Below are positions 8,401 to 42,437 of a DNA stretch of 64,000 bases, piece by piece (the first letter of the stretch is position 1; each line of letters starts with the position of its first letter). This DNA comes from Pilimelia terevasa (GTDB lineage Bacteria > Actinomycetota > Actinomycetes > Mycobacteriales > Micromonosporaceae): contig NZ_BMQC01000011.1 of assembly GCF_014647915.1 (NCBI RefSeq), positions 62,001 through 126,000 of the forward strand, written 5' to 3'. Below the pieces are notes generated by a model that worked only from the letters and a program-made list of their open reading frames with translations, was not told where the DNA came from and did not search any database. The position numbers and the translations under genes were made by a program.

Positions 8401-8969
8401 TCGCCCGCCACGCTGTCCGAGGAGTCGAGGGCGACCAACAACGCCTGGTCAGAAAGCTGATCGGATGATCGCAGCGACAAGGTTCGCCGCTCGATCGCGC
8501 CGAGGTCACGCATGAGCAGGTCTGCCAGCGTCTCCTCCATCGGAGTTAGTCGTTCCGACTGCCGACTGCCCTGGATCAGTGAGAACGCGCGTGCGGCGAA
8601 GCCTCCGAGGTGGCTGGCTGCGCCGGCTACGAGTCCGTGAAAGCTAAGGTCGTCCCCGGGGGCGGCGTTTCGGGTGGCTGCTTCCAGGGCGTAGGAGCTC
8701 TGGACGAATCCCTGCCGCGCGAGGTCTGCCTGCTCGGGCGAGTCGTTCTGCGCGATCTCCCACAGCTCAAGACTGGTCGACAGCAACGCATAGCCGTAGT
8801 TGAGCAGGTCGGCGTCCAAGAATGCGCTGAAGTTGGGGGCCTCCGGAGGCAGGGTGCCGTTTCGGCGAATCATCGACTGCGCTTGACCTTGAGCCAGAAG
8901 CCGGTTGCGGAAGCCTGCGTCGGTCACCGTGGTCAGGATGTCTACCAGTTCCTGCGCCTCACGGGCCAC
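5466..8969 (-). CDS. hamB: Hachiman helicase HamB
   Basis: An 1167-residue superfamily 2 helicase. Motif I ALPTSAGKTRIAE lies near residue 333, motif II VVLDEGHMIG near 430 (a DEGH box), motif III CLSAVF near 468, and the second RecA domain carries ASPTLAQGLNLS near 660 and VIGRAGRA near 691, followed by a long C-terminal region of about 450 residues without recognised motifs. In Hachiman, HamB forms a complex with the nuclease HamA, scans DNA and releases HamA activity when genome integrity is disturbed by phage. The GTG start at 8969 overlaps the 3' end of hamA by 11 bases, so translation is coupled. The related AbpAB helicase-nuclease pair is the main alternative; the neighbour's DUF1837 features favour Hachiman. 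Confidence 0.85.
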   Translation of the reverse strand: MAREAQELVDILTTVTDAGFRNRLLAQGQAQSMIRRNGTLPPEAPNFSAFLDADLLNYGYALLSTSLELWEIAQNDSPEQADLARQGFVQSSYALEAATRNAAPGDDLSFHGLVAGAASHLGGFAARAFSLIQGSRQSERLTPMEETLADLLMRDLGAIERRTLSLRSSDQLSDQALLVALDSSDSVAGDDTEPDQVGPVVLLLSENYLSAVSSGLFAIEIGDRALLEIALTELREGEQASSDANAPGPWWVYRLTRHMLGGLFDTSLETNIPTDPPAGAAERVERWRYLRRTFVASLLARERSEIDLWPSQLNVVDRLFQDVRDLVVALPTSAGKTRIAELSILACLAQQRRTVYVTPLRALSAQTEHILARTFTPLGIRVSSLYGSMGTSDVDEDTLRSSEIVVATPEKLDFALRSDPSLLDDVGLVVLDEGHMIGASEREVRYEAQIQRLLRRPDASERRILCLSAVFPSGPQLDDFVAWITDDEADGLHRESWRPTQQRFGLVEWRRDHARLSITLGSEQPFIEHYFEEKAPSGRRKKMFPKDQREHVIATGWRLVDEGQTVLVFCPVRKSVEPFARAIVDLHTRGVITSLLPADVDLSDALVVGAEWFGADHPILKCLELGVAIHHGALPGPFRREIERLLQRGILKVTIASPTLAQGLNLSASAVLFHSLHRGRELIKTSEFANVIGRAGRAFVDTEGLVLYPIFAPTPGRRREWFELTQGDGGKELRSGLIEIGFALLSRMYRSQGLTEIEPLLAYLTGGPDWTLPVITGEDATAQEDAAASWRENLKLLDIGILSIVGDGDQDVLADAATQLVADALRDSLWDRQLRRAEDLTRAAVRGLVSSRTRHLWQTATPSQRRGWFLAGLGAQGGSELAQVSGRIIALAGQAETAILEEDHATAADLIVLIAEIVFAIEVFGPKTNLANWSDVLRHWVSGSALGEVPGDRVDIAQFIEDDVIYRLVWGMEAARVYETAQDNAGADTLSGATVAAIETGTFNQAASVLIRTGFDHRLAAIAAVTSADATFDSTQGLRDWIDNLEPEYAFNPAWPTPESRSAWEAFVNPSGRRRARRWSHQTEDVPDVTWYRDVPEPDTWLRITNATPGKINIWSTGFDLLGEANIRLDADRQGILRARRHRADTGIRLRYRGPGDLLPRTPSRRT

Positions 8970-9720
8970 CGGCGGTCACCTTCTCGTAGGCTTGACGAAT
9001 GAACTGCTGGTGGCCTCGGACGCGCAGTGTGATTGTCAGCTGCGACACGGGACCCTGGTACGCCACGAGGTCTGCCGTCACGTGCTTGCCGGGGTCGTTG
9101 CCTGTGAAAAGGAACATCAGATGATCAACGTCGGCCGGGCGGACGCCCGCCAGCTGCAGCTCGAGCACGGCGATGCCGACATCGCTGTCGGGCGTGGATA
9201 GGAGCCGCTCGGCGAACTGCGCAAGCGACTGCGCTGAAGGCAGCTCTCCGTTGCGCGACAACCCCTCGCGCGCTTCGACGACGGTGTCGTTATACAGCCG
9301 GGCGCGGCTCTTGGCCTCGGCTTTGACGACGCGTGCCTTGCCGTCGGAACTGAGCTTCGCTCCGAGCGCGTCATCGCCTCGCATGGCCCATTCCTGGTGG
9401 TCGCGTTCGCTGAGTCGGCTCGGCCCGACCACCCACCCTTGCTCCTCGTGGAGATAGGCGGTCGCGAGGATCTCGCCGATGTCACCGGAGCGGGCGCTGG
9501 CCGAGGTGGGAAGTTTGTTGCGAAGGAACTCTGCGACGGCGTCCTTGCCCAGCCGCTCGGCGATGTCCGCGAGCGACCCGGACTTGGTGTACGCGGCGGG
9601 TAGACCAGCTGCGACCGCGGCGACTCCCGTGCTGTCGTCGTGCGACTCGATGAGGCCGGCTAGGTGGCCGCCTGTAGGCACCGGCGCATGAACCGTACAC
9701 CAGCGGCGGAATTCTGACAT
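8959..9720 (-). CDS. hamA: Hachiman nuclease HamA (DUF1837)
   Basis: A 253-residue DUF1837 protein, the effector of the Hachiman anti-phage system. The restriction-like core is visible: GDIGEILATAYL (Glu83), MRGDDALG (Asp116/117) and VVKAEAKSRA, giving the E-x-K pair Glu135/Lys137 typical of these nucleases. In known Hachiman systems HamA is held inactive by HamB and degrades DNA indiscriminately once released, killing or arresting the infected cell. The ATG at 9720 is preferred over upstream in-frame codons because the preceding 40 residues look untranslated. The gene is first in a two-gene operon with hamB. The assignment rests on motif pattern, size and the helicase neighbour. Confidence 0.82.
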   Translation of the reverse strand: MSEFRRWCTVHAPVPTGGHLAGLIESHDDSTGVAAVAAGLPAAYTKSGSLADIAERLGKDAVAEFLRNKLPTSASARSGDIGEILATAYLHEEQGWVVGPSRLSERDHQEWAMRGDDALGAKLSSDGKARVVKAEAKSRARLYNDTVVEAREGLSRNGELPSAQSLAQFAERLLSTPDSDVGIAVLELQLAGVRPADVDHLMFLFTGNDPGKHVTADLVAYQGPVSQLTITLRVRGHQQFIRQAYEKVTAGGP

Positions 9721-10062
9721 GTCGTGACGTTCCCGTATCCCTGTCTGTGTCTGAGCGTCAGCCGACAAACTGTATCGAGTAGCCGGAGTAGCCAGGCCCC
9801 TTTGCCGCCGTACGTGTTGCGGCTGCCCGATTTGCGACGCTGTCAACGGAAGCCCAGCCGAGCAAGCCGCCGATCACGCGCGGTGCGCCTCATTGATCCG
9901 ACCAGGTGGCGATGCCAAGCGTCGGGGATGTCCGGGGCTGGTGCACGAAGGGGCAGTCGAAGTGCGTGCCACGAAGCTGCACGCGACGATCGGTGGTCGC
10001 AATCGCTGCTCAACCAGGCCCTGAAGCTTCGGTTTGCCGTCGCAATTGCCGGACCTAATGCG
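9721..10062. other. intergenic region upstream of hamA
   Basis: About 340 bases between the start of hamA and the end of the lanthipeptide operon, both on the minus strand. An open frame on the plus strand (from 9724) has no ribosome binding site and no protein-like pattern, and I do not call it. The region should contain the hamA promoter and the terminator of the lanthipeptide operon, but I cannot point to either. Confidence 0.5.
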
Positions 10063-10821
10063 TCAGGGGCGATCGCTCCCGAATGTCGCTTCGTGGCCGG
10101 CGTGGGCGAGCGCGGCTTGGGTTGTGGCGGCGAGCCCGAGCCGGTTCCAGTGGAAGATCACGTGTAGCGCGAGGACGGCGCGGAGTCCGCGTGTGAGCCT
10201 GCCTGCTTCTCGGGTGCGCTGGAGGGTTGCGCCTGCGTTGATGAATGCGGCGTGCCATTCGTCGGTGGTGCGAACGGTACCGGTGATGAGTTGCCCGACG
10301 CTCCTGATGAAGCCGCCCCACGTGTGGCTGCTGGGCGGCTGTGTGAAGTGCTCGGCGCGGTGCTCGGCCACGCGTGCCCAGACGTCGCCTTGCTCGTTGA
10401 GGTCGAGTCCTGCGCCGCGCATGAGCGCCGTACACAGCACCAGTGACCGTTCCCGCCGGTCGGTCGGCTGGTGCTGGAGGTACCGCAGGAGGTGGCGGCT
10501 GTCCTGGTGGAACAGGGTGTGCGAGGTCGTCATCGCCTCTGTGCCGCCGAACGCGTGCGTCTCGGGTTCGTAGATGTCGGGGGTCCAGCTCACGCCGTCG
10601 GTGATCAGCTCGTGTGCCCGTTGCTGGCTGTGCTGCTGGTCGGGGGGTAGGTATCGGATGCGCCAGGCGCCCTTCCGGATGTACCACCACGAGGTGATCA
10701 GTCCGCTGGACTGGGCGGCTGGGAGAACTCGGTTCAGGTGTTCGATCGCCCGGAGTTCACGCTCGCGGGCGTCCTGGCCGGGGTAGTTGATGTTGATCTG
10801 TTGCCAGAGGCTGTCGTCCAT
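10063..10821 (-). CDS. SpaB_C / thiopeptide-type bacteriocin biosynthesis protein
   Basis: A 252-residue stand-alone version of the domain that ends LanB dehydratases (SpaB_C, thiopeptide-type bacteriocin biosynthesis domain). The start at 10821 (MDDSLWQQININYPG) lies 17 bases past the cyclase stop. The N-terminal pattern WQQININYPG, then HLNRVLPAAQSSGLITSWWY and KGAWRIRYL, is characteristic. In LanB enzymes this domain eliminates glutamate from glutamylated Ser/Thr. The LanB of this operon already has its own copy, so this extra one may act on a different residue, assist, or be a scaffold. It is the last gene of the operon. Confidence 0.78.
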   Translation of the reverse strand: MDDSLWQQININYPGQDARERELRAIEHLNRVLPAAQSSGLITSWWYIRKGAWRIRYLPPDQQHSQQRAHELITDGVSWTPDIYEPETHAFGGTEAMTTSHTLFHQDSRHLLRYLQHQPTDRRERSLVLCTALMRGAGLDLNEQGDVWARVAEHRAEHFTQPPSSHTWGGFIRSVGQLITGTVRTTDEWHAAFINAGATLQRTREAGRLTRGLRAVLALHVIFHWNRLGLAATTQAALAHAGHEATFGSDRP

Positions 10822-10837
10822 GGGTGGGCCTTTCGCG

Positions 10838-11914
10838 TCAGGCGATGAGGAGGCAGGCGTCCCAGGCGGTTGCGGTGGTGCCCATTCCGGCGAGGGCGGC
10901 ACCGGTGGTCCCGGTCAGCAGCCCCAGGGGTTCGTCCGCGTCGCCGGTGGCCCGCTGGTGGAGAGCCGCGATGGTGTTGAGCGGTGTCGGGGTGAGCGCG
11001 TCGGCGGCGATGCGCCTGGCGGTGGCCAGGAGTCCTGCGGTGCCGTGGCATAGGCCGCCCTCGACGAGCCGACCGGTCTGGTCCGGGTCGGTGACGCAGC
11101 AAGCGAAGGCCGTCTCGGCACGGTTCTGCCGGTCGGGTTCGTGCAGGGCCTGCGCGGCGAGCTGTTGGGCGCGGGCGATGCCGGGGGTGCCGTAGCACCA
11201 GGACGGCCGCAGCGGTGTCTGCTGGGTCGGGGCCCCACGGTTCACGTCGGTGAGGGTGAGGGTCTGTGGCCACCAGATCGCGCCGTCGGTGTTCTGTTGC
11301 CAGGTGTCGAGCCATCGGCAGATCCGCTGGATCGCCTCGGAGTGCCCATTGACGGTGATGCCGTCGCGCAAGGTGAGTGCGAGCAGCGCGAGCGGGCCGG
11401 TGATGCCGTGGGCGATGCCGTGGTTGGCGTGGCCGCCGACCGGCGGCGGTTGGTCGCGTTCGGGGCTGTTGCAGCACCACCAGCCGGGAAGTTCAGCTTG
11501 GGGTTCGGTGAGCCGGACGAGGTACTCCAGGACGTCGCGGAGCAGGTCGAGGTCGCCGATCCGGCGTAGGGCGACCCCGAGGCCGGTCAGTCCGCGGATC
11601 AGGTCGTACTCGGCGAAGTGCGGCAGCGCGCCGCGGTCGATGCGGCGGTGCGCCGCCTCCAGCCGCTGCCGGGTGACCATGACGGTGCCCTCAGCGGTGG
11701 TGGCCTTGGCTTGGGCGAGGCCGGGGTGGTCGGCGGCGGCGAGGACGAACGCGAGCGCGGGGGCGCCGTAGAAGAGGCTCGCTCCGGCCGCGATGCTGAC
11801 GCCGCCCACGGTGGCCTGCCGTAGGGCGTCGCGCGCTGCGGGCCAGTTGCCGGTCTCCAGGTGCAGCAGGGCGACGCCGGCAGCTCCGTCGGCGAGCGAC
11901 TGCCCCGCGCTCAT
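10838..11914 (-). CDS. lanthipeptide cyclase LanC
   Basis: A 358-residue LanC-like zinc cyclase that adds cysteine thiols to dehydrated Ser/Thr, forming lanthionine rings. Zinc and catalytic residues are in place: GHANHGIAHG near residues 161-170, Cys240 in SWCYGTPG, and the Cys-His pair at 289-290 in GLCHGTAG. The glycine-rich repeats of the alpha/alpha toroid (IRGLTGLGVALRRIG, HGITGPLALL) are visible. It is slightly short at the N-terminus compared with typical LanC proteins of about 400 residues. Its ATG overlaps the stop of the dehydratase gene by 4 bases, so the two are translationally coupled. Confidence 0.93.
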   Translation of the reverse strand: MSAGQSLADGAAGVALLHLETGNWPAARDALRQATVGGVSIAAGASLFYGAPALAFVLAAADHPGLAQAKATTAEGTVMVTRQRLEAAHRRIDRGALPHFAEYDLIRGLTGLGVALRRIGDLDLLRDVLEYLVRLTEPQAELPGWWCCNSPERDQPPPVGGHANHGIAHGITGPLALLALTLRDGITVNGHSEAIQRICRWLDTWQQNTDGAIWWPQTLTLTDVNRGAPTQQTPLRPSWCYGTPGIARAQQLAAQALHEPDRQNRAETAFACCVTDPDQTGRLVEGGLCHGTAGLLATARRIAADALTPTPLNTIAALHQRATGDADEPLGLLTGTTGAALAGMGTTATAWDACLLIA

Positions 11915-14652
11915 GCCGTCCGCCTCGCGTGGGCGGTGTGGGCGACGGTGCGGGCCAGGCGCAGGCAGTGCTGCTCGGATGCGGTGCCGACACCGATCAT
12001 GCGGGCGTGGTGCAGGTGCAGCAGGTCGCCGAGTACCTGGTCCGGGTCGAGCCCGTCCGCCTCGACCAGCGCCCGATAGGTGGCCAACGCTGAGGCCAGG
12101 CGCTCGTCGTGGAACGGGACTCGAGCGGCGTCGAGCTGGGCCGGATCCAGCCGCGGGCCGGTGTGTCGGGGGACGTGCGTGGTCAACCAGCGCAGGCCAT
12201 CGCCGGTGAACCCGTCAGCGATGGTGATCATGCTGGCGGCGGTGTTGGCCTGCCGGTCGCCGGTCAGCCGGCGCAGGGCGGCGTGGGAGTCGGCGGCGAA
12301 CACGACCTCGGCCGCCGCCAGGATCGGCCCGACGCCGTGCCGGGTCTCCGGCCGGTACTGATGCAGGCTGTAGTCCTGGACGACGGCATCGCCGTGAAGT
12401 TCCTCCACCCAGCGGGCGAGGTGGCGGGCGGCGTCCGCGAACCGGTCGACGTGCGGAAGCGGGATGCGCAGCCGCAGGTGGGGTTCGGGCTCGGGGTACC
12501 GCAGGAACCACCAGCCCGGCGGTAGGTAGTCGGCGGCGCGTCCGGCGAGGTCGGCGAGGATGGCGTCGACCCGCCCGTACAGGCGGGCCTCCAGCCACCT
12601 CGACCGGCCGGGCAGGTGCACGACGGTGCTCGCCCGCCGGGCGGAACGAGGCGGTCGGGTGGCCGGCGCAGGGTCGGTGAGGGTGAGCATCAGCTCGGCG
12701 GGGCGGTTGTCGATCCAGCCCGCCGGACCAGGCGCCTCGGTGATCACGGCGCGGCCATGCCGGTCGAGGTGCTCGCGCAGGACCGCCAAGTGCGCGGGCT
12801 GGTCCAGGTCGAGGCGCAGTTGTACGTCGTCGCCGCCGATGAGGACGTGCTGCGGAATGTGCCACTGGTGCTGGTGGCGCTGCCACGCGTCCCGCCACTG
12901 CGGCCATTCGGCGGTGCGAGCCGGGACCGCGGTGGGCTCGATGGTCCAGCGGGCCGGGTGCAGAATGCTGCGTCCGCGCCGCACGCGGGGTAGGAACGGC
13001 AGGCCGGCGGCGTGCCCCCAGTCGAACCGGGTGCACGGCGAGTTGTAGGCGGTCCAGATCTCGGCCAGGAACCGCGTCAGCGGCTGCTGAAGCGACGGGA
13101 GCACGCTGTTGCACAGCAACGGCTCGACCGGCTGGCCGGTGCTCCGGGACACCAGCCACAGCCGCCGGCCGTCTCCGGTGACCGCCAGATCCGCCACGGT
13201 CCACGGCGGCGCGGGATGGAAGTCGCCGACCGGGAGCACCGGCAGCAGCTCGGGCGTACGGGCCAGGGCCGCGAGGCGGGCGTCCAGCGGCGGGCCGGAC
13301 AGTTGCACGGTGGCCGCGCCGGGCAGGGTGGTCGGCAGCTCGCGGTATACCCGCTGGAACGAGGCGAACTCGGCGGGCGTGAGCAGGTGCAGGAACCGGC
13401 CGGCGGACACCCCGGCGTGCCGTGAGCCGCTGAGCACCGTCAGGACGAACTCGCCGCGGTCCAGATCCCGCAGCGTGTCGGCGGCGAGGGAGAACCGCAG
13501 CTCGCTGTGCGGCACCGATGGCCGGTCGTCGCCGCCGCGCAGCCGCTCGATCAGCGCATCATCCAGGAGCACCTCGGCGCACTCGTCGAGCGCTGATTGC
13601 TGGGCGAGTTGGCCGAGCAGCCGATCCCGGCCGGTGAACTTCGCGGGTGTACGGCGGGTCGATCCGCGGTATCCGGCCGGGAACCCGAGCACGCTGAGCA
13701 CGTCGCGCAGGGGCACGGCCGCTCCCGGCCCCCACCGCTCGATGAACGCTCGGTGGTACTCGACCCAGCCCGGCAGCGGCGGCGCCACCGCCACCAGCGT
13801 CGCCGCGGCCCGCCCGGCCTCGCGCAGCACCGCCGGCGGAAGGGCGACCTCGACATCGGCTCGCAGGTCGACCGCGACCCGCTCACCGGGATCACGCGTC
13901 GTGCCGCCATCCGGTGCGTAGCCGGCAGGGTCGGTGACCATCGCCGGGCGCAGCGCCGACAGCAGCACTCCGGCCTTCACCAGGTCGGCCAGCAGCCGCT
14001 CGGCTGCCGCCGCGCCAGCGCCCGGTCCCGCGATCTTTGCGGCGAGGTCGGCGAACCCGATCGGCGTCCGCGCCGCGTCGATCGCGGTCCGGACCGGGCC
14101 GGTGAGGCGGACCTCGACATCCCACCGCCGGTCACCGTCGGTGCGGGCGTACGGCAGCACCCACCGCCCGGCGCGCTCGTACCCGAGGGAGTTGGTCATC
14201 ACCGCGGCCGTGCGCAACGCGGCGAGGTTCTGCTCGACGCGCGCGGTGTGCTCGGCGATGACTTCGCCGTCCGGGCGCGCGACCGCCCGATGGGCTTCAC
14301 CCACCCGGACGCTCGCGCGGGTACCGAAGTTGACGGGGGCCACTCCGACTAAGGTGCCGAACGGGGTCGCGCGGGTGGTCCACCGCAGCAGGTACCTAAC
14401 TGCCGTTCCCACGAGGCGGCGCAGCCGGTGCTCCTCGATCGGCTCACCGGACACGACTTGAGTGATCCGCCCGGCGAGGTCCGGCGCTGCGGAGGTCACC
14501 GCCGCCGCGAATTGCGGCGATGCCCAGACCGCGGCGAGCCAGGTGCGCCACTCGTCCGGTCCGGCCGAGGCCGGGTCCGGCCAGGCGGGCAGGACCAGAT
14601 CGTTGGGGTAGGAGGCGACTCGGATCAGCGCCGCACCGGCTGCGGAAATCAC
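11911..14652 (-). CDS. class I lanthipeptide dehydratase LanB
   Basis: A 913-residue LanB. The first two thirds match the glutamylation domain (MISAAGAALIRVASYPNDLV, RYLLRWTTRATPFGTLVGVA, GRDRLLGQLAQQ). The last 220 residues match the elimination (SpaB_C) domain (WLEARLYGRVDAILADLAG, WWFLRYPEPEPHLRLRI, VQDYSLHQYRPETRHGVG). It dehydrates Ser and Thr of the precursor core using glutamyl-tRNA, in the cytoplasm. It follows the precursor gene by 72 bases and overlaps lanC by 4. The length is close to full-size LanB proteins, and no lesion is visible. Confidence 0.93.
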   Translation of the reverse strand: MISAAGAALIRVASYPNDLVLPAWPDPASAGPDEWRTWLAAVWASPQFAAAVTSAAPDLAGRITQVVSGEPIEEHRLRRLVGTAVRYLLRWTTRATPFGTLVGVAPVNFGTRASVRVGEAHRAVARPDGEVIAEHTARVEQNLAALRTAAVMTNSLGYERAGRWVLPYARTDGDRRWDVEVRLTGPVRTAIDAARTPIGFADLAAKIAGPGAGAAAAERLLADLVKAGVLLSALRPAMVTDPAGYAPDGGTTRDPGERVAVDLRADVEVALPPAVLREAGRAAATLVAVAPPLPGWVEYHRAFIERWGPGAAVPLRDVLSVLGFPAGYRGSTRRTPAKFTGRDRLLGQLAQQSALDECAEVLLDDALIERLRGGDDRPSVPHSELRFSLAADTLRDLDRGEFVLTVLSGSRHAGVSAGRFLHLLTPAEFASFQRVYRELPTTLPGAATVQLSGPPLDARLAALARTPELLPVLPVGDFHPAPPWTVADLAVTGDGRRLWLVSRSTGQPVEPLLCNSVLPSLQQPLTRFLAEIWTAYNSPCTRFDWGHAAGLPFLPRVRRGRSILHPARWTIEPTAVPARTAEWPQWRDAWQRHQHQWHIPQHVLIGGDDVQLRLDLDQPAHLAVLREHLDRHGRAVITEAPGPAGWIDNRPAELMLTLTDPAPATRPPRSARRASTVVHLPGRSRWLEARLYGRVDAILADLAGRAADYLPPGWWFLRYPEPEPHLRLRIPLPHVDRFADAARHLARWVEELHGDAVVQDYSLHQYRPETRHGVGPILAAAEVVFAADSHAALRRLTGDRQANTAASMITIADGFTGDGLRWLTTHVPRHTGPRLDPAQLDAARVPFHDERLASALATYRALVEADGLDPDQVLGDLLHLHHARMIGVGTASEQHCLRLARTVAHTAHARRTA

Positions 14653-14724
14653 GCTTGCACCACCGAGGGGGTCGGCGGGTCCGGCGCCGCGCGGGCGCCG
14701 GACCCGGTACGAGGGGTTGGGGGG

Positions 14725-14883
14725 TCAGTTGCCGCCGTCGCAGCGGGTGGTGCCGGCGTTGGAGCCGGTGTTGCCCGACCCGCAGCCGTCACTGGTGTTG
14801 GTGGAGTAGCCGCTGGCGGCGGGGCCGGCGTCGACCAGGCTGACGTCGAGGACGAACTCTTCTTCGATGGTCGTGTCGCTCAT
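14725..14883 (-). CDS. FxLD-family lanthipeptide precursor, 52 aa
   Basis: A short gene between the methyltransferase and LanB. The ATG at 14883 is preceded by AGAGAGG at a good distance and lies 12 bases past the methyltransferase stop. The leader starts MSDTTIEEEFVLDVSLVD; FVLD is the FxLD recognition motif used by LanB enzymes. The likely core follows AGPAA: about ten Ser/Thr and two Cys (34 and 48), in SDGCGSGNTG and TTRCDGG. Both cysteines are next to Asp-Gly (Asp32-Gly33, Asp49-Gly50), the sequence most prone to succinimide formation, which fits the adjacent isoaspartate-forming methyltransferase. Up to two lanthionine rings are possible. The leader cleavage site is not certain. Confidence 0.9.
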   Translation of the reverse strand: MSDTTIEEEFVLDVSLVDAGPAASGYSTNTSDGCGSGNTGSNAGTTRCDGGN

Positions 14884-14895
14884 GGGCTTGCCTCT

Positions 14896-16137
14896 CTATG
14901 AAGGGTTGAAGGCGAGGACGATGCGGCTGTGCCGCTTGTCCAGCACCGTCCCGGCCGGCAGGTCGCCGTCGGGAGTACCAGCGGGCGCGACATGCAGCAC
15001 CGGCGAGGGCGTGCCGGCGTCCAGCCACGCGCGCATCTGCTCGACCATCCGCCCCGCCGCCGCGGCAGCAGCCGGCCCGTGCGCGCGGGCGCCCACGTCG
15101 AACAGGTCACCGGTCCAGGTCAGGTCCGAGCGGTAGCAGAAGGTGCCGTCGGCCAGCGCGGCGGGCGTGCCGAACCGCCACGCCGGGGCGACGCGGCCGG
15201 CGTCGATGGCCTCCTGCTGCGCGGTGAGCACCACGAACTGCTGCCCGTCGTCGGTGGTGCGGGCGGCCAGCCACAGGTCGAGGTCGGCCAGGACCGTGCG
15301 CGCCGGCAGGCTCGCACCGGCCCACTCCTGCACCGGCGGCTGGGCCAGCAGCGCGCTGACCGCCTGGGTGTCGATCTGCTGGCCGAGTTCGTCCAGCCGC
15401 AGGTGCACGCCCTGCGCGATGTCGACGAAACGCATCTCGTGGGCGCCGGCCCCCTGCATGGACACGAACCCGCACAGCCGCTGGCTGCGGCTGACCAGCC
15501 GGTCACCGGTGCGGCGCAGCGCCCACGAGCGAGTCATCCCGAAGGTGCGCAGCGGCACCACCAGGGTGCCGTGCTCGGCGAGCTGGGCGGTCCACGCCGG
15601 CGGGATGTCCCACGCCCCGACCGTCACAATGATCAGGTCGTAGAGGCGACCGTCGGCGATCGGCTGTTCGGCGTCGGCGCACACCACGCGCACGTCGTCG
15701 TAGCCAGCCGCGATCAGGCAGGCGGTAGCGCGGTCGGTGACGTCGCTGTCGATGTCCACTGTCGTCACCGATCCCGCCGGCCCGACCAGCTCGGAAAGCA
15801 GGGCCGCGTTGTAGCCGCCGGAGCCGATCTCCAGCACGTGCCGGCCGCACAGTCCACCGTCCACGGCGTCGGCGGCCTGGCCGAGCATCTCCGCGATCAG
15901 CCACGGCGCCGACACCGAGCTGATCGCCTCGTCGCCGCGCCGCTTGGTGACCACCGCCTCATCGGCGCGGTACGCCTGGGTCAGCGGGGCGTCCGGGGTG
16001 AACAGGTGGCGGGGGACGGCGCGCAACGCCGCCTCCACCTCGGGTCGCATCGTCAGCCCCTTGTCCCCGTGGTCGGAGACGAGCTGGTCGACCATCGCGG
16101 TATGCAGGTCCTCGCTCGGCATGGTGTCGACGCTCAC
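14896..16137 (-). CDS. FxLD-system O-methyltransferase (LanS_A / PCMT-like)
   Basis: A protein of about 413 residues related to protein-L-isoaspartate O-methyltransferase, of the type paired with FxLD lanthipeptides (the characterised relative is OlvSA). It methylates an Asp side chain inside the ring-containing peptide; collapse to succinimide and hydrolysis give isoaspartate. The signature VEAALRAVPRHLFTPDAPL, the switch region ISSVSAPWLIAEML and the SAM motif VLEIGSGGYNAALL are present, plus a C-terminal extension of about 200 residues typical of the FxLD group. I prefer the GTG at 16137, with GAGGAG nine bases upstream; the frame is open to 16170. It is the first clear biosynthetic gene of the operon. 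Confidence 0.9.
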   Translation of the reverse strand: MSVDTMPSEDLHTAMVDQLVSDHGDKGLTMRPEVEAALRAVPRHLFTPDAPLTQAYRADEAVVTKRRGDEAISSVSAPWLIAEMLGQAADAVDGGLCGRHVLEIGSGGYNAALLSELVGPAGSVTTVDIDSDVTDRATACLIAAGYDDVRVVCADAEQPIADGRLYDLIIVTVGAWDIPPAWTAQLAEHGTLVVPLRTFGMTRSWALRRTGDRLVSRSQRLCGFVSMQGAGAHEMRFVDIAQGVHLRLDELGQQIDTQAVSALLAQPPVQEWAGASLPARTVLADLDLWLAARTTDDGQQFVVLTAQQEAIDAGRVAPAWRFGTPAALADGTFCYRSDLTWTGDLFDVGARAHGPAAAAAAGRMVEQMRAWLDAGTPSPVLHVAPAGTPDGDLPAGTVLDKRHSRIVLAFNPS

Positions 16138-16245
16138 TGGGATGCACTCCTCTTCCATCAGGGCCGCCACGTGGGACGGCTCGGCTTCGGGCTGTTCGGG
16201 CTCAACACCGGGCTGAGCGACGGGACTCGAGATCGGCTTGCGCGG

Positions 16246-16768: not shown

Positions 16769-16783
16769 GTAGTTGTACAGATG
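16769..16783 (-). promoter_or_regulatory. operator-like motif upstream of lanthipeptide operon
   Basis: The plus strand reads GTAGTTGTACAGATG. It matches 12 of 15 bases of each arm of the perfect inverted repeat at 22125-22162, including ten identical bases TTGTACAGAT. It lies between the divergent lanthipeptide operon and the pentapeptide-repeat gene. I infer a binding site for a shared regulator, possibly the XRE protein at 22161-22481, or a shared promoter element. Confidence 0.5.
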
Positions 16784-16834
16784 GCGGCGCGCGCGGCGGC
16801 TTGGCATGTCGGGGCGGCTGGCTACGGTGGGGCC

Positions 16835-17518
16835 ATGGTCGTGCGTTCCCCGCGGCGCGGTGTCACGCGCTGGCAGCCCCCGCAGCCGCCCACCGTCCCC
16901 GCCTCGCTGACCCGCGGGGTACTGCCGGACCACGACTTGGACCATGAGGTGTCCTTCGACCGGGTCGAGTTCGACGGCCTCGACTTGACCGGCCGCCGCG
17001 CGGGCGGGGTGCAGTTCGAGGAGTGCCGGCTGGTCCGTACGGATCTGGCGGAGACGGTGCTGGACCGGTCGCAGTTCTCCGAGTGCATCGCCGAGCAGGC
17101 GAACTGGGCGAATCTGAAGGCCACGAAGTTGACGTTGCTGCGCTGCCGGCTGTCCGGGCTTCGGCTGACCGGCCTGCACTGGGTCGACGGCGGCCTGCGC
17201 GACGTCACGATCTCCGAGTGCCGGGTGGACCTGGCGTCGTTCCGGTTCTCGTCGTTCTCCGCGGTGCTGTTCGAGGACTGCGTCCTGACCGGCGCGGACT
17301 TCACCGGCGCGAAGTTGGGCGGTGCCCGGTTCGTGGGCTGCGACCTGACCGGCGCCCGGTTCCCCGAGGCACAGCTGAAGGGCGCGGAGTTCTCCCGCTG
17401 CACCCTGGCGGACATCGACGGGATTACCAACTTCGCCGGGGCGGTGATCGACAGCCACGACCTGATCGCCCTGTCCTACACGCTGGCTGGGGCGCTGGGC
17501 ATTCAGATCCGCGACTGA
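16835..17518 (+). CDS. pentapeptide-repeat protein
   Basis: A 227-residue right-handed beta-helix protein built from A(D/N)Lxx-type repeats, for example FDGLDLTGRRAGGVQFEECR, CVLTGADFTGAKLGGARFVG and CDLTGARFPEAQLKGAEFSR. The start is the ATG at 16835; upstream in-frame residues lack a ribosome binding site. It diverges from the lanthipeptide operon across a shared 125-base region with the TTGTACAGAT motif and ends three bases from the stop of the convergent carbamoyltransferase gene. Pentapeptide proteins of the MfpA/Qnr type protect DNA gyrase and often sit beside toxin genes, so self-protection is conceivable, but nothing in the sequence fixes the partner. Confidence 0.85.
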   Translation: MVVRSPRRGVTRWQPPQPPTVPASLTRGVLPDHDLDHEVSFDRVEFDGLDLTGRRAGGVQFEECRLVRTDLAETVLDRSQFSECIAEQANWANLKATKLTLLRCRLSGLRLTGLHWVDGGLRDVTISECRVDLASFRFSSFSAVLFEDCVLTGADFTGAKLGGARFVGCDLTGARFPEAQLKGAEFSRCTLADIDGITNFAGAVIDSHDLIALSYTLAGALGIQIRD

Positions 17519-17520: not shown

Positions 17521-19233
17521 TCACCGCCGGCCCCCGATGAGGGGGGTCTTGCTGACCAGCAGCGGGCCTAGCTGTAGGTGTTGCAGGTCGGACCCGTCGA
17601 GGACGGCGAGGGCGCCGGCGGCGGTGCGGGCGATGGGCTGGCCGTGCAGGTTCAGTGAGGTGTTGAGCAGGATCCCGCGCCCAGTGGCCTGCTGGTAGGC
17701 GGTCAGGATGGCGGCGAGGCCGGTGTCGGTGTGGTCGTCGACGATCTGTGGCCGGCAGGTCAGGTCCGCGGGGTGGACCGCGGCGATCATCTCGGGCAGG
17801 GCGTCGGCGCGGGCGGGCATGGCCAGCATCATGTGCGGGCTGGGCAGCTTCTTCGGGTTGTGCAGGTAGTCGTGCTGGCGGCTGGCGAGCACGGCGGGGG
17901 CGAACGGCATCCAGAAGTCGCGCTGCTTGACAAGCCGGTTCAGGATCCGCGGCAGGTCGGGGTTGGCGGGGTCGGCGAGGATGGACCGGTTGCCCAGGGC
18001 GCGGGCGCCGAACTCCATCCGCCCCGCCGCCCGACCGACGATTTCGCCGCGGGCGACCAGCGCCGCGACCGCGGCGGCTGGGTCGGCAGGGTGCTCGACG
18101 TGGTAGCCGGGCCGGTCGGCCAGGGCCGCGGCGGCGTCGGCTTCGGTGATGTCGTCGCCGAGGTAGCAGTCCGCCAGCGGCGCGACGTCGGCGTGCCCGT
18201 ATTCGTCGGCGGTGTGCTGGTACAGGGCACCCAGCGGAAGGCTCTCGTCGCCGCAGGACGGGAACGCGGCGAAGCTGTCGACGCCGGGCAGGGCGGCGAG
18301 GCGCTGGTTTGCCTTGACGTTCATGAACACCCCGCCGGCGGCGAGGACGTCGCGGATGCCGGTGTGCGCGACGGCGGCGGCGGTCCAGTCGGCGAGGAGG
18401 TTCTCGGTGAACAGCTGCAGTCCGGCGAAGACGTCGTCGAAGCGGCGGCCTTGCAGCCGGGCGGCGATCCGCGGCCAGCTGCGCTCCACCGACGCGGTGG
18501 TGGTGCGGCGGAAGGTGAGTCCGTCGGCGGAGAGCTTGAGGAAGTCGCCGTAGACCGCAGCGACCTGGCTGGCCCGGCCGGGATCGGCGTGGGGGGCCAT
18601 GCCCATGAGCTTGTACTCGTCCTCGTGCGGGGTGAAGCCGTGGGCGTGGGTGGTCCAGAAGTACAGCAGCCCGAGACTGTTGCGCAGGTCCGTGCGCGCT
18701 ACCTCGGTCGCGTGGCCGTTGCGCCAGACGGTGATGGTGGCGCAGGCGCCGTCGCCGAACCCGTCGCAGGTCAGCACCAGGTAGGGGCGGGCGGGGTCGG
18801 CGCGTAGGCCGTAGTAGGCGGTGGCGGCGTGGGTGCGGTGGTGTTCGTAGAAGCTGACCGGCGCCTTCACGCCCACGCCGGCGAGGGCGTCGGTGACCTG
18901 GCGGCGGTTGGCCGGGGAGTCGTCGGCGAGCAGTTGCACCTCGTGGCGGGCGACGCCGGGTCGGCGGTGGAAGTCGACGAGCCGGCGCAGGAACTCCTCA
19001 CGCGGGCAGTGCGCGACCGGGCCGGTGCGGGCGCCGTAGGCGACGGCGGTCACGTCGGCCGGATCCGCGGCGACGTGGCGCAGGCATGCGGCGATCGCCT
19101 CGCGGGGGAAGCCGATGTGTCCCTTGTTCCGGGTCAGGCGTTCCTCCTGCACGCAGTAGATCAGCCGGCCGTCGACGGCGATGGCGGCCGCGGAGTTGGC
19201 GCCGGCATGCAGGGCGAGGGTCAGGGCGGTCAC
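17521..19233 (-). CDS. NodU/CmcH-family O-carbamoyltransferase
   Basis: A 570-residue carbamoyltransferase that activates carbamoyl phosphate as carbamoyl-adenylate and transfers it to a hydroxyl group. The N-terminal HSP70/Kae1-like domain carries CVQEERLTRNKGHIGFP near residue 30 and metal-binding histidines in YEHHRTHAATAYY near 130. The C-terminal YrdC-like domain carries the hallmark GRMEFGARALGNRSILADP near residue 390, then FWMPFAPAVL. The start at 19233 overlaps the stop of the upstream radical SAM gene (GTGA), so it belongs to the same operon. By context the acceptor would be the modified 53-aa peptide or a compound derived from it, which is inference. All key motifs look intact. Confidence 0.93.
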   Translation of the reverse strand: MTALTLALHAGANSAAAIAVDGRLIYCVQEERLTRNKGHIGFPREAIAACLRHVAADPADVTAVAYGARTGPVAHCPREEFLRRLVDFHRRPGVARHEVQLLADDSPANRRQVTDALAGVGVKAPVSFYEHHRTHAATAYYGLRADPARPYLVLTCDGFGDGACATITVWRNGHATEVARTDLRNSLGLLYFWTTHAHGFTPHEDEYKLMGMAPHADPGRASQVAAVYGDFLKLSADGLTFRRTTTASVERSWPRIAARLQGRRFDDVFAGLQLFTENLLADWTAAAVAHTGIRDVLAAGGVFMNVKANQRLAALPGVDSFAAFPSCGDESLPLGALYQHTADEYGHADVAPLADCYLGDDITEADAAAALADRPGYHVEHPADPAAAVAALVARGEIVGRAAGRMEFGARALGNRSILADPANPDLPRILNRLVKQRDFWMPFAPAVLASRQHDYLHNPKKLPSPHMMLAMPARADALPEMIAAVHPADLTCRPQIVDDHTDTGLAAILTAYQQATGRGILLNTSLNLHGQPIARTAAGALAVLDGSDLQHLQLGPLLVSKTPLIGGRR

Positions 19234-20621
19234 GAGATGGCTCCGGCGGGCTGGCGGGTGGGAATGTCGAGCAGGTCGGTGAACCACTGCCACTCGGCGA
19301 ACTTCAGCTCGGCCAGCCGGGTCAGGTCCCCGGCCCGGGACTCGTGCAGCCCGGCGAGGACGGGCCGGACATGCTGGGCGTACCAGTCGGACAGCTGGGC
19401 GTCGAGGTCGGCGATCTCGGGGTCGGCGAACCGGAAGCCGCGGTGGAACGGTGCGGCATCGAGCAGGCCGTCGTCGCGGATGCGGCGCTCGGCGACCGTG
19501 CCGGGGATGACCAGCAGCCGCGAGCGGGCCAGGAACTGCGGGACCCGGTGGCGGCCGAACTCCTCCAGGGCGGCCAGCTCGGCGCGCAGGGCGGGCAGGG
19601 TTTGCCAGGGGTGCCAGAGGATGTAGCTGGCCACGGTGGTGATGCCGGCGGCATCAGCCGCCGCCACCACGCGGCGCAGGTGGTCCAGGTCCTGACGTTT
19701 GCCGTACAGGCGGTGCAGCGTGTCCGGGTTGAGCGACTCCACGCCGATGAGCAGTACGTCGACGCCGGCTTCGGCGAGCAGGGTGATGGCTTCGCCGGTG
19801 AGGGTCTCGGACCGGATGTTCATGCTCAACCCCACCCGCCCAGCCAGGCCGTGGGCGTGGAGGGCGTCGCGGAGTTGGCCGGCGCGGCGGATGCAGGCGT
19901 CGCGGGTGCCGCCGAAGTCGACGTCGTCCATGGAGAAGCGGGTGGCGCCGGTCAGCTCGTGCAGGTGGGCGATGTCGGCGACCGCAGCGGCGATGGGGAG
20001 TTCGGTCCAGCCGGCGCCGAGGTCGGCGTTGTAGGCGCAGAAGGTGCAGCGGGATCGGCAGCCGCGGCTGGCCGACACCGACACCACCGCCTCCGGCTGC
20101 CGAGCCACATCCTCGGCGGTGAGGTCGAGCAGCGAGGTGTGGCCGCGCAGCGCGTCCGCCGCATCGGCGGCGACCGCGGCCACGAGCGGGTCGCGGGCGG
20201 GCCCGCTGTTGGGGTGCAGGCCGACGACGTGGTCGACGGCGCCGTGGGCGCGCAGCTCCGCGGCGGCGCTGGTGGCCAGCGGCCCGAACCCGAGCACCGC
20301 GACCGCGTGCCGGAAACGGGCGGCGGCCAGTTCGTCGGCGATCTCGGCCAGCCGCGGCCCGTAGGCGTCGGAGGTCCACAGGTGCACGATCAGCACGTCG
20401 AACCCGCCACCTGCGAGCACGTCGGCGAGCGGAGAGGCGTTGGCGGCGCGGTTGTAGGCGTCCAGCAGGCAAACGTGGTGGCCGCGGGCGCGTAGGTGGG
20501 CATGCAGGGCGAGCGCTTCGCCGTCGACGTGGTGCTGCTTGAACCCGCCCTCGTACAGGCTCGGCGCCCACAGCAGGATCCGCGCCCGCCGGGTCGGGGT
20601 CAGCACTCGCAGCGCCGGCAT
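19230..20621 (-). CDS. B12-binding-type radical SAM enzyme
   Basis: A 463-residue enzyme. An N-terminal cobalamin-binding-like Rossmann domain (about residues 14-135; LHAHLRARGHHVCLLDAYN, then DVLIVHLWTSDAYGPRL) is followed by a radical SAM barrel with the cluster motif CRSRCTFC (CxxxCxxC) and an HxxxR-free core containing LLIGVESLNPDTLHRLYG. Members of this class often methylate unactivated carbons or rearrange skeletons. The frame stays open far upstream, but that part lies inside the other radical SAM gene. The ATG at 20621 gives a normal length and a 22-base overlap with the upstream gene. It is cotranscribed with the SPASM maturase and carbamoyltransferase. Confidence 0.88.
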   Translation of the reverse strand: MPALRVLTPTRRARILLWAPSLYEGGFKQHHVDGEALALHAHLRARGHHVCLLDAYNRAANASPLADVLAGGGFDVLIVHLWTSDAYGPRLAEIADELAAARFRHAVAVLGFGPLATSAAAELRAHGAVDHVVGLHPNSGPARDPLVAAVAADAADALRGHTSLLDLTAEDVARQPEAVVSVSASRGCRSRCTFCAYNADLGAGWTELPIAAAVADIAHLHELTGATRFSMDDVDFGGTRDACIRRAGQLRDALHAHGLAGRVGLSMNIRSETLTGEAITLLAEAGVDVLLIGVESLNPDTLHRLYGKRQDLDHLRRVVAAADAAGITTVASYILWHPWQTLPALRAELAALEEFGRHRVPQFLARSRLLVIPGTVAERRIRDDGLLDAAPFHRGFRFADPEIADLDAQLSDWYAQHVRPVLAGLHESRAGDLTRLAELKFAEWQWFTDLLDIPTRQPAGAIS

Positions 20622-21811
20622 GGCGTGGCCACCTCCCCCCGGAACGCGGCCATCGTCGCCGAGGAGAACCACACCTGGTCCAGGTCGTCGGTCAGCAGGT
20701 TCCCGCACCGCATGGCTGGGTTCTCCACACCGAAGATGCAGGGGTAGATGTCGGCGCGCTGGTCCACGGCGAAGCCGACGGTGCCGCTGCCGCACGGCTC
20801 GTCGGGGTTGATCGTCTCGATCTCCACCGCGTGCAGCCGGGCCAGCCGCGCGCACTCCGGCACGAGCGTGCCCATGATCTGCGCGTCGTCGAGGGTGTGC
20901 GCGACCGTGGAGCGGCCGACGGGCTTCTGCGGGAAGAACTTGAACCGCGAACAGCCCACCTGCACGCCGACCTTGACGATCTGCTCCAGCTCGGCAAGGT
21001 TCATCCGGTTGACCACCGTGTTGATCACCGGGGTGGCGAACTGCGCGATCTGCTCGATCCCCGCCAGCGTCCGGGCGAACGAGCGGGGGGCGCCGCGGAT
21101 CAGCTCGTGCGTGGCGGCGGTGCCGCCGTCGAGTGATACCTGCACCGTGCCGACACCCAGCTCGCGCAGCCGGGTGAGGGTGCGTGGGGGTAGGACGGTG
21201 GCGTTGGTGCTGACCCCGAACCCCATCCCGCGGCCCAGGATCTCGCCGGCGATGTCGAAGAACCCGTCCAGCATCAGGCTCGCCCCGCCGGTGACGTAGA
21301 CGTCGAAGACGCCGTAGTCGTCGAGCCGCCCTATCACCTCCCGCCACGTCTCGGTCGGCAGCAGGAACGGGTCGGCTTTCGGGCCGCCGGAGCAGTAGCA
21401 GTGCAGGCACTTCTGATTGCACACGGTGAACGGCTGCAGGTGCACCCACATCGGTTTCAGCACCGGCAACGCGGGCCGGCGCTCAGCGATTGCGCGGCCG
21501 GCCCCGTCCAGGTCCGCCGCGGTGACCGCAGTCGGGCGCTCGTCGGCGGCGACCAGCACGTCCTGGTCGAGAAGGCTGGCGACGATCTCCGCCCAGCCGG
21601 CCTCGGTGATCGGGTCCAGGCCGGGCACGTGCACCGCCGGCGACGGCGCGGCGGCGGGCCGGGACCGGTGGTGCAGCAGCACCAGCGCGACGGCGGCGGG
21701 GTGCAGGTTGAAGATGCGCCGCGGCCGGCCCCGCCACGCCAACGCCCCGAAGTGCTCATGCCGCAGCCGCAGATCCGGCGCGACGGTGATAGCCGCTGGA
21801 AGTACCGACAC
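20600..21811 (-). CDS. radical SAM/SPASM peptide maturase with PqqD-like N-terminus
   Basis: A 403-residue radical SAM enzyme. The first 90 residues resemble a PqqD-type precursor-binding (RRE) domain (HFGALAWRGRPRRIFNLHP). The barrel follows, with FTVCNQKCLHCYC (CxxxCxxC), VYVTGGASL and VQVSLDGGTAATHELIRGAP. A C-terminal SPASM-like cysteine set includes CGSGTVGF, IYPCIFG, RCGNLL and PCRRCEC, which should bind auxiliary iron-sulfur clusters. This layout is that of RiPP maturases. The GTG at 21811 is chosen for the purine-rich GGAAGGGGGG site before it. It begins 59 bases after the candidate precursor gene. The exact chemistry cannot be read from sequence. Confidence 0.9.
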   Translation of the reverse strand: MSVLPAAITVAPDLRLRHEHFGALAWRGRPRRIFNLHPAAVALVLLHHRSRPAAAPSPAVHVPGLDPITEAGWAEIVASLLDQDVLVAADERPTAVTAADLDGAGRAIAERRPALPVLKPMWVHLQPFTVCNQKCLHCYCSGGPKADPFLLPTETWREVIGRLDDYGVFDVYVTGGASLMLDGFFDIAGEILGRGMGFGVSTNATVLPPRTLTRLRELGVGTVQVSLDGGTAATHELIRGAPRSFARTLAGIEQIAQFATPVINTVVNRMNLAELEQIVKVGVQVGCSRFKFFPQKPVGRSTVAHTLDDAQIMGTLVPECARLARLHAVEIETINPDEPCGSGTVGFAVDQRADIYPCIFGVENPAMRCGNLLTDDLDQVWFSSATMAAFRGEVATPCRRCEC

Positions 21812-21870
21812 CCTGACCCCCCTTCCCGGGTGGTGGGGCGGGCCTGCTGGCGCCCGCCCCACCACGACCA

Positions 21871-22032
21871 TCACTTCGCCGCCGACACCTGGCGGTCAGC
21901 GGTCGCGGCCTGCTTGCCGGTCGGGAACGGACGGTCCGGGGCGACTGTGCCCGAGTAGGTCCGGTGGCCGATCGACAGCGACGCCGCCGCGGTCGTCTCG
22001 TACGCCGTCACCGGCGGATACGTCGAGGACAT
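21871..22032 (-). CDS. candidate RiPP precursor, 53 aa
   Basis: A short gene directly in front of the radical SAM maturase. ATG at 22032 with a near-perfect AGGAGG eight bases upstream, the best ribosome binding site in this operon. The peptide starts MSSTYPPVTAYETTAAASLS, continues with IGHRTYSGTVAPDRPFPTG and ends QVSAAK. It has no cysteine; Tyr, His, Arg, Thr and Ser are concentrated in the middle. It fits a substrate for C-C or C-O crosslinking, methylation and carbamoylation, and the maturase has a PqqD-like domain to bind it. I do not recognise the family. A regulatory peptide or a non-RiPP small protein is possible. Confidence 0.75.
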   Translation of the reverse strand: MSSTYPPVTAYETTAAASLSIGHRTYSGTVAPDRPFPTGKQAATADRQVSAAK

Positions 22033-22063
22033 GCCGATACCTCCTGCGATATCGCTGGGTTTC

Positions 22064-22080
22064 AGCGGGTACCTCCCGCT
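22064..22080 (-). promoter_or_regulatory. small hairpin in the leader of the precursor gene
   Basis: AGCGGG and CCCGCT pair across a five-base loop about 32 bases upstream of the 53-aa precursor start. On the minus strand the loop displays a GGAGGTACC, resembling the true ribosome binding site downstream (GGAGGTATC). It may be a decoy or a regulator half-site. I infer only that the leader is structured. Confidence 0.4.
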
Positions 22081-22124
22081 ATCTACTCATTGACCCACCG
22101 CCCGCGCCGTGAGGCCAGAAGGCC

Positions 22125-22162
22125 GATCTGTACAAGTAGGAGGGTCGCTACTTGTACAGATC
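22125..22162. promoter_or_regulatory. perfect 15-bp inverted repeat, probable operator
   Basis: GATCTGTACAAGTAG and CTACTTGTACAGATC are exact inverted repeats around an eight-base spacer. The right arm overlaps the stop codon of the XRE regulator, and the repeat lies about 95-130 bases upstream of the 53-aa precursor gene. A single related copy lies upstream of the lanthipeptide operon (16769-16783). No T-run follows on the minus strand, so an operator is more likely than a terminator, and the regulator ending inside it is the obvious candidate binder. Confidence 0.65.
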
Positions 22163-22481
22163 ACCGTCCGGCGCCGCCGGGCCCGTCGTGCGATGCTCCC
22201 GACCCCGCCGCGCGCCGGCGACGGTCTGCGGCCAGTTGCTGAGCCCGCACCGGCGGCCACAGCGCCTCCAGCTCCCCACCAGCGACGAGGACCTTGTCGC
22301 AGCTGGCGGCCAGCTCCCGCGACGGCCAGCGCTCTGCCCGCTCGGTCTTGGCGACGGTCTGCGCGCTTTGAAAGACGAGGTCGGCCAACCCCTGCTGGGA
22401 CAGCCCGCGCCGGATCCGCCATGAGCGCAGGGCGGCACCGAAGCGATGCGCCGGCGACGCGTCCGGGGTCAGGTCACTCAT
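22161..22481 (-). CDS. XRE-family transcriptional regulator, 106 aa
   Basis: A 106-residue DNA-binding protein. The helix-turn-helix lies at about residues 15-70: FGAALRSWRIRRGLSQQGLA then VFQSAQTVAKTERAERWPS, followed by the GGELEALWPP tail common in actinomycete XRE regulators. The ATG at 22481 is used; earlier in-frame residues look non-coding. It is transcribed towards the 53-aa precursor and ends within the perfect inverted repeat, which suggests it controls that operon and possibly the lanthipeptide operon through the shared motif. It has no ligand-binding domain. Confidence 0.85.
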   Translation of the reverse strand: MSDLTPDASPAHRFGAALRSWRIRRGLSQQGLADLVFQSAQTVAKTERAERWPSRELAASCDKVLVAGGELEALWPPVRAQQLAADRRRRAAGSGASHDGPGGAGR

Positions 22482-34993: not shown

Positions 34994-35083
34994 GGGCACA
35001 CTCCTCCTATGTATCGAATGCGGGGATGCGATTTCGTGCTTCCTACTTGGCGTGGTTGATCAACGCTCCGATTCGGGAACGGA

Positions 35084-35383
35084 TCAAGTCGACGGCGCTG
35101 ATTCCGTCGTTCCGTCGGTTGATGGCGGGCTGGGGTGGCGTGGGGGTTCGGCGGGGATGCCGAGCACGGCCATGATCGACAGGACGGACACCCAGCGGCG
35201 TTTCCCGACAGTCATCACCGGCACCGGGAAGGCGCCGCGACGGGCGGCGTCGTAGGCGACCGTGCGGTTCATGCCAAAGATCGAACCGGCGGTGGGGATG
35301 TCGACGAGCGTCCCGAGGGCGCGGATCTGCGCAGCGGTCCAGCCGTTGGCCCGGCCTTTGGGCCGTCCCTTCGCCGCGCTCAC
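35084..35383 (-). CDS. excisionase-like HTH protein, 99 aa
   Basis: A small basic protein with a probable winged-helix fold. Residues 15-80 read GWTAAQIRALGTLVDIPTAG, SIFGMNRTVAYDAARRGAFP and VPVMTVGKRRWVSVLSIMAV, the pattern of MerR-like excisionase/DNA-binding proteins. The GTG at 35383 overlaps the stop of the upstream gene (GTGA). It lies about 90 bases in front of the integrase on the same strand, the usual place for an excisionase. The protein at 35992-36357 is a clear paralogue. The Ser/Thr/Pro-rich tail appears disordered. Confidence 0.7.
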   Translation of the reverse strand: MSAAKGRPKGRANGWTAAQIRALGTLVDIPTAGSIFGMNRTVAYDAARRGAFPVPVMTVGKRRWVSVLSIMAVLGIPAEPPRHPSPPSTDGTTESAPST

Positions 35384-35811
35384 CCGGTGCCCCTGCCGCG
35401 GCGGCGGGCGGCGGTGACCGCGTCGATCATCGCCTTCCACTGCGCGCGCCGCAGGCCGTGGACCCGGTCGATGAGTAGGGGCCAGTACAGGGCGAGGCGG
35501 CGGACGATCAGGCTCCAGCAGTCGCTGTGCAGCACGGTGACGGTGGTCCCGTTGCGGCTGCGCACCGTGCGGACCGCGCCGGCCGGCGGCGCTTCGAGGA
35601 GCTCGTCGACCAGGCCGGGCAGGTCGATGTAGTCGAGCAGCTCCGCGGCGGGGATCCGGTCCAGCGCGGGGTTGCGCAGACGCCGGGGATGCAGGTTCGG
35701 CCGGCGGGCCAACGTGGCGGCCATCAACGTCGCCGGCCGCAGGTAGCGCCCCGTGGCCGGCGCGGTCCGCGCCGGGCGGGCGGTCTGGGTGTGGGAAATG
35801 GTGGAAGGCAT
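35380..35811 (-). CDS. unrecognised element protein, 143 aa
   Basis: A 143-residue protein I cannot assign. It begins MPSTISHTQTARPARTAPAT, and the body contains IPAAELLDYIDLPGLVDELL, then VRSRNGTTVTVLHSDCWSLI. The ATG at 35811 has GGGAG six bases upstream and a large stem-loop about 100 bases before it. It is coupled by a GTGA overlap to the excisionase-like gene. A DNA-binding or replication-control role is plausible from location only. Confidence 0.55.
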   Translation of the reverse strand: MPSTISHTQTARPARTAPATGRYLRPATLMAATLARRPNLHPRRLRNPALDRIPAAELLDYIDLPGLVDELLEAPPAGAVRTVRSRNGTTVTVLHSDCWSLIVRRLALYWPLLIDRVHGLRRAQWKAMIDAVTAARRRGRGTG

Positions 35812-35914
35812 ATCGGGCTCCCGAAAAAGGCCAAGTCGTGGAGCCGGCCCACCGGCGCGGACAGCAGCACCACCAGACGGGGACTGTCGGCGGCCGAGGC
35901 CGGAGAAGAAGAGG

Positions 35915-35974
35915 CCGCCGGTGGCACCCGGGCGCGGCTGGAAAGCCGTCGCGGTTCTTGGGTGCCACCGGCGG
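35915..35974. terminator. stem-loop with perfect 15-bp arms
   Basis: CCGCCGGTGGCACCC (35915-35929) pairs exactly with GGGTGCCACCGGCGG (35960-35974), with a smaller hairpin in the loop. On the minus strand it is followed by CTCTTCTTCTCC, a pyrimidine tract. It separates two cassette-like genes of the leftward arm. Confidence 0.6.
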
Positions 35975-35991
35975 ACCAGTGGTGGGGAATT

Positions 35992-36357: not shown

Positions 36358-36381
36358 ACAAAGCTCCTGAGAGACGAAGAT

Positions 36382-42419: not shown

Positions 42420-42437
42420 CCACGCGGGCCCGGGCGC

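Follow-up and report, generated by a model that had tools for sequence, protein, structure and literature searches.

We analysed a 64-kb stretch of DNA, hereafter the window, from the GC-rich, 4.5-Mb genome of Pilimelia terevasa (Micromonosporaceae), the sole genome of its genus in our comparison set. On the minus strand it carries an operon for, in order, a 53-residue peptide, a SPASM radical S-adenosylmethionine (SAM) enzyme, a second radical SAM enzyme and a carbamoyltransferase (Table 1), in which the two radical SAM genes overlap by 22 bases and the second of them overlaps the carbamoyltransferase gene by 4 bases. An earlier note on this DNA had proposed that the operon makes a ribosomally synthesized and post-translationally modified peptide (RiPP); the open reading frames (ORFs) of the peptide and the enzymes, the AGGAGG site and both overlaps that it listed are all present. 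Its coordinates hold for the operon but not for the end of the unit, since this runs on to a pentapeptide-repeat protein (PRP) gene on the opposite strand. The SPASM enzyme, which we call the maturase, probably begins at the GTG at position 21811, after the intergenic hairpin, rather than where its ORF opens at position 21874, because the orthologues start there.

Table 1. Features of the radical SAM unit and of the neighbouring FxLD lanthipeptide cluster, in window coordinates. RRE, RiPP recognition element; HTH, helix-turn-helix.
Feature	Position	Strand	Evidence or remark
Precursor peptide, 53 residues, MSSTYPPVTAYETTAAASLSIGHRTYSGTVAPDRPFPTGKQAATADRQVSAAK	21871..22032	-	AGGAGG and ATG; homologous peptide gene at the corresponding site of 7 other genomes
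GC-rich hairpin between peptide and maturase genes	21830..21865	-	Strong hairpin at the same place in 8/8 loci, no T-run
SPASM radical SAM maturase with predicted fused RRE	20600..21811	-	PF04055 4.8e-19, PF13186 3.5e-6; GTG start predicted
Predicted RRE (MftB/PqqD-like peptide-binding domain), maturase N-terminus	21551..21790	-	TIGR03967 match
Second radical SAM enzyme, N-terminal B12-binding-like Rossmann domain, AprD4/TsrM-like	19230..20621	-	PF04055 8.6e-15; PF02310 5e-4, under cut-off
NodU/TobZ/NovN-type carbamoyltransferase	17521..19233	-	PF02543 4.6e-28, PF16861 1.6e-50
PRP, convergent with operon, 3-bp gap	16781..17518	+	PF13599 1.7e-30
Small XRE-type HTH gene upstream of peptide, candidate regulator	22161..22481	-	HTH_31 1.3e-7
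Perfect 15-bp inverted repeat GATCTGTACAAGTAG..CTACTTGTACAGATC, between HTH gene and peptide	22125..22162		Possible operator
FxLD precursor	14725..14883	-	TIGR04363
FxLD methyltransferase	14896..16170	-	
LanB	11911..14652	-	
LanC-like	10838..11914	-	
Second Lant_dehydr_C	10063..10902	-	

A search of 355 Micromonosporaceae genomes, comprising that of the window and 354 others, identified maturase orthologues in seven of the others, related soil bacteria (Micromonospora andamanensis being one) that belong to two further genera and bring the total to 8 of 355 genomes in three genera. The order of the four genes is the same in all seven relatives, one copy having broken enzyme genes, and the window maturase is 58-62% identical to the six intact orthologues. 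In a scan of the order, the second radical SAM enzyme was seen in three genomes, each of which also has the maturase. DNA alignments of the relatives delimit a single block of ~7.3 kb that contains an HTH-containing gene, the peptide, the three enzymes and two PRPs; its edges coincide, and its flanks are unrelated in cross-genus comparisons. At locus L019 the HTH gene is absent and the block is inverted relative to its flanks. In the broken copy (L020, 10815-13211), a DDE transposase splits the second radical SAM gene and the N-terminus of the maturase is disturbed, while the peptide and PRP genes remain, the scanned PRP match with one in-frame TAG; this copy is decaying. Ratios of nonsynonymous to synonymous variation (pN/pS) of 0.22-0.25 indicate purifying selection on the enzymes among the relatives. 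Scans of the class, the order and plasmids, which are samples of the larger group, gave no orthologue of the unit outside the Micromonosporaceae. The earlier note had allowed that homologous maturases might lack a neighbouring small peptide, or that the enzymes might belong to an unrelated pathway; a conserved small peptide stands beside the maturase at all eight loci, and in every genome found the three enzyme genes lie together, in the same order and never in another pathway. The gene set is a real conserved unit.

The peptide ORFs of the relatives encode 57-58 residues, lie directly upstream of the maturase gene behind an AGGAAGG-type site and an ATG, and can be aligned to the window peptide. 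A comparison of this kind had been suggested as a way to find a conserved core, and one was found: all eight peptides share the stretch A[TS]L[AS][LI]G[CH][KR]TY[ST]GT[VI]A, with L19, G22, T25, Y26, G28, T29 and A31 invariant. The description of the peptide as free of cysteine applies to the window only, as each of the seven relatives has one cysteine, at the [CH] position. A profile built from the relatives' peptides only ranks the window peptide first among 1055 stop-to-stop ORFs with an E-value of 1.8e-5, the next candidate having 0.24. Moreover, amino-acid similarity across the loci peaks, among the six frames, in that of the peptide, length differences between loci amount to whole codons, and the peptide is single-copy in each genome and found solely at this locus. 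Searches of 84,980 GTDB genomes with short patterns yielded no peptide relatives, because the peptide diverges; those of the relatives were found instead through the maturase search, by reading upstream of each maturase.

The maturase has a CX3CX2C motif (CNQKCLHC) and a SPASM domain, and its matches to PF04055 and PF13186 exceed the cut-offs. Its residues 8-87 are matched by TIGR03967, the model of mycofactocin MftB, over positions 6-83 of the 85 in the profile, and the match recurs in all seven orthologues tested, with a best E-value of 8.7e-5, although the score falls short of the model's own cut-off. On the strength of this recurrent match, we take the first ~90 residues to be an RRE fused to the maturase. 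The PqqD-like N-terminus suggested earlier is thus supported as an MftB-like one; Pfam and the PDB returned no PqqD match for this domain, whereas the MftB model of NCBIfam did match. The conserved peptide at 8/8 loci and the MftB-like RRE support the RiPP interpretation, and we have high confidence that the operon encodes a modified-peptide pathway.

The same comparisons could be taken to mean that the peptide is a scaffold to be trimmed down, yielding a small redox cofactor or a small molecule of another type, as in the mycofactocin and pyrroloquinoline quinone pathways. As in mycofactocin biosynthesis, an MftB-like binding domain and an MftC-like SPASM enzyme accompany a short peptide with an invariant Tyr, and MftC is the nearest NCBIfam model to the maturase (1.2e-27). 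The MftC score is 97 bits against an equivalog cut-off of 265, however, which no protein in the genome reaches. In addition, the RRE is here fused to the maturase, the peptide does not end in Val-Tyr, the block holds no MftD/E/F-like genes, and the second radical SAM enzyme is extra, as are the carbamoyltransferase and the PRP, which would have no role in such a pathway. Sporadic occurrence in 8 of 355 genomes also suits a specialised metabolite better than a cofactor, and we regard a cofactor as an improbable product.

The second radical SAM enzyme has the cluster motif CRSRCTFC, so that the radical SAM core which the earlier note had assigned to it stands, while the B12-binding part of that assignment corresponds to a weak match that is weighed below. 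Its best match in the PDB is AprD4 (1e-10), and Foldseek with a low-confidence model also places it near AprD4 and then TsrM, which is a hint only. AprD4 is not a methyltransferase, and because this is the nearest solved relative and the B12 match is weak, a methyl product would be a guess.

Both the N- and C-terminal carbamoyltransferase domains (PF02543 and PF16861) are present in the third enzyme, which matches carbamoyltransferases in the PDB at 1.8e-64. The motifs of TobZ, NovN and GdmN are conserved, and HHxxH, DGFGDG, GGVFMN and GRMEFGARALGNRS are invariant or nearly so across the loci. Carbamoyltransferases are exceedingly rare in RiPP biosynthesis: before StdF, only that of crocagin had been well characterised, and StdF, the RiPP precedent characterised best, acts on Lys (PMC13174530). 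Judging from the aligned peptides, a carbamoylated Lys at the conserved basic position cannot be general here, because the window peptide has Arg there. O-Carbamoylation of Thr, Tyr or Ser would fit the invariant residues, and T25, Y26 and T29 are possible acceptors common to all eight peptides. The solved structures nearest to these two enzymes, AprD4 and NovN/TobZ, bring to mind the decoration of a non-peptide molecule, with the small ORF incidental, as AprD4 and TobZ are aminoglycoside enzymes. Such a role is hard to reconcile with a peptide conserved at all eight loci, with an RRE on the maturase and with the absence of sugar or cyclitol genes from the conserved block, and we consider it highly improbable.

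The PRP gene, which the earlier note had missed, is the best clue to the function of the RiPP operon. It is convergent with the carbamoyltransferase gene at 8/8 loci, and an orthologue of the window PRP, the true start of which is probably the ATG at position 16835, is found at the corresponding cluster end in each of the seven relatives (40-44% identity). These seven loci carry two PRPs, the window-type one being separated from the carbamoyltransferase by a second that is MfpA-like. The window PRP is collinear with the Qnr-type structure 2w7z (1.2e-14) and the relatives' second PRP with MfpA, and the repeats agree with a pentapeptide beta-helix. Strong PRP genes number ~2-4 per genome, with 1-2 of these in the block. 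In a further Micromonospora genome (G253), for which the family scan gave no maturase orthologue, the end of a contig holds a window-type PRP, very similar to those of the relatives, and a second PRP truncated to its first ~51 residues (L046, 9216-10196); the pair is apparently either a relic of the cluster or a copy kept for immunity alone. PRPs of the McbG, AlbG, CysO, MfpA and Qnr kind protect DNA gyrase. Three of them, AlbG, CysO and McbG, sit in the clusters of the gyrase inhibitors albicidin, cystobactamid and microcin B17, respectively, and confer immunity (PMC9886550), and PRPs have served as beacons for finding topoisomerase inhibitors (PMC9231227). We propose gyrase or topoisomerase as the target of the product because a PRP is part of the block and PRP immunity is found in known gyrase-inhibitor clusters, and we give this target about an even chance. 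By analogy, the PRP would be a gyrase-protecting immunity protein. As a whole, we think it fairly likely that the unit represents an undescribed RiPP family, the product of which would most likely be an inhibitor of DNA gyrase (type II topoisomerase) with PRP self-immunity.

From the gene order, conservation, protein families and PRP linkage, we infer the following chemical steps, target and immunity role. The intergenic hairpin, likely an attenuator or mRNA-stability element, would allow the precursor to be made in excess over the enzymes. The MftB-like RRE would bind the leader, and the SPASM enzyme would alter the conserved TY[ST]GT core by radical chemistry in the manner of mycofactocin MftC, through oxidation or a crosslink. 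The AprD4/TsrM-like enzyme would then make one more carbon-centred change (C-methylation, dehydration or epimerisation), and the carbamoyltransferase would cap a hydroxyl. Leader removal and export would be performed by enzymes encoded outside the cluster, since the block has no conserved gene for a protease or an exporter, and the adjoining PRP or PRPs would shield the producer's gyrase like McbG, AlbG and CysO.

Several observations weigh against this proposal, the lack of a conserved protease or exporter among them, and the product itself is predicted from genes alone. The SAM-binding motif of the maturase (residues 175-178) reads GGA in the window and GGE in the six intact aligned orthologues, a difference that may lower its activity. 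The peptide, with a pN/pS of 0.70, is less constrained than the enzymes, and its core is quiet at synonymous sites too (pS 0.10 vs 0.25-0.30 elsewhere in the gene, among the relatives), hinting at extra constraint on the nucleic acid or at a small-sample effect. The PF02310 B12-binding match of the second radical SAM enzyme is seen in four of seven members and is weak in the window, at 20.3 bits against a cut-off of 32.1, and the AlphaFold models, built from 7-row alignments, are of low confidence (pLDDT scores of 50 and 59), making the Foldseek rankings hints only. For the PRPs, the equivalog cut-offs of Qnr and MfpA are not reached, with 46 against 460 bits for QnrB and 32 against 360 for MfpA. 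PRPs form a large and diverse family, many members of which do not act on gyrase, and in one genome (G346) a window-like PRP occurs without the cassette. These last points would also suit a RiPP with another target, perhaps in signalling or with a different antibacterial mode, with the PRP serving some unrelated purpose and simply being carried along, and the evidence from the peptide, the RRE and the enzymes is independent of the PRP. That PRP genes are few per genome, and that the PRP nevertheless lies within the conserved block at 8/8 loci, is doubled in seven and coincides with the block edges, argues otherwise, and we rate a different target as possible yet rather unlikely.

Each of the enzyme families is known, but neither their combination nor the peptide family seems to have been described. 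In agreement with the statement in the earlier note that no RiPP pathway is known to join these three enzymes, the open-access literature holds no description of a RiPP pathway that pairs radical SAM maturation with a carbamoyltransferase or with a PRP, although mention elsewhere is possible. Microcin B17 owes its azoles to a cyclodehydratase/dehydrogenase, with no radical SAM enzymes and no carbamoyltransferase. It resembles the present system as a ribosomal peptide from a cluster with a gyrase-protecting PRP, McbG (PMC9886550). Albicidin and cystobactamid are likewise peptide-like gyrase poisons with PRP self-resistance through AlbG and CysO (PMC9886550), and albicidin is carbamoylated by Alb15, as cited in PMC13174530, but both come from non-ribosomal assembly lines. 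Crocagin (CgnA-I) and the std product (StdA-I) are RiPPs with characterised carbamoyltransferases (PMC10070186, PMC13174530), yet neither uses radical SAM chemistry, crocagin depending on CgnB/C/E and std on an MNIO and YcaO-TfuA, and the Lys-modifying StdF is fused to a peptidase. Tentatively, and with somewhat more doubt than confidence, we suggest a new RiPP class containing the first radical-SAM-built, carbamoylated peptide to poison gyrase or topoisomerase, guarded by one or two PRPs and forming a ribosomally made equivalent of albicidin and cystobactamid. If this is true, the locus offers a compact and complete test case: a single short conserved core is worked on by three enzymes whose chemistries are seldom or never found together, and the target can be predicted from a resistance gene. 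A further carbamoyltransferase would join those characterised so far in RiPP biosynthesis, for crocagin and Std, radical SAM peptides would take a place among the gyrase inhibitors, and a new antibacterial scaffold would become available.

Upstream of the peptide, the HTH gene of the window is a candidate regulator. At the same place the relatives have a divergent, 445-residue HTH-containing gene (F7), seen by tblastn in six loci, which we treat as a counterpart in position. The inverted repeat that begins at the stop codon of the window HTH gene has no match in front of the peptide genes of the relatives.

Beside the operon lies a complete FxLD lanthipeptide cluster (window 10063-16170, minus strand), which represents a RiPP pathway of its own, of a type already known. 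Membership of its genes in the radical SAM unit was considered and rejected, as none groups with a gene from any of the seven other loci. Farther along the minus strand (window 5466-9846), a HamA-like protein and a large DEAD-box helicase are probably a Hachiman-type anti-phage pair. An integrative conjugative element, with an integrase, TraG/TrwB-like ATPases and a Replic_Relax protein, occupies window 33521-52023, and a Mom-like protein is encoded within this region at 36530-36985.

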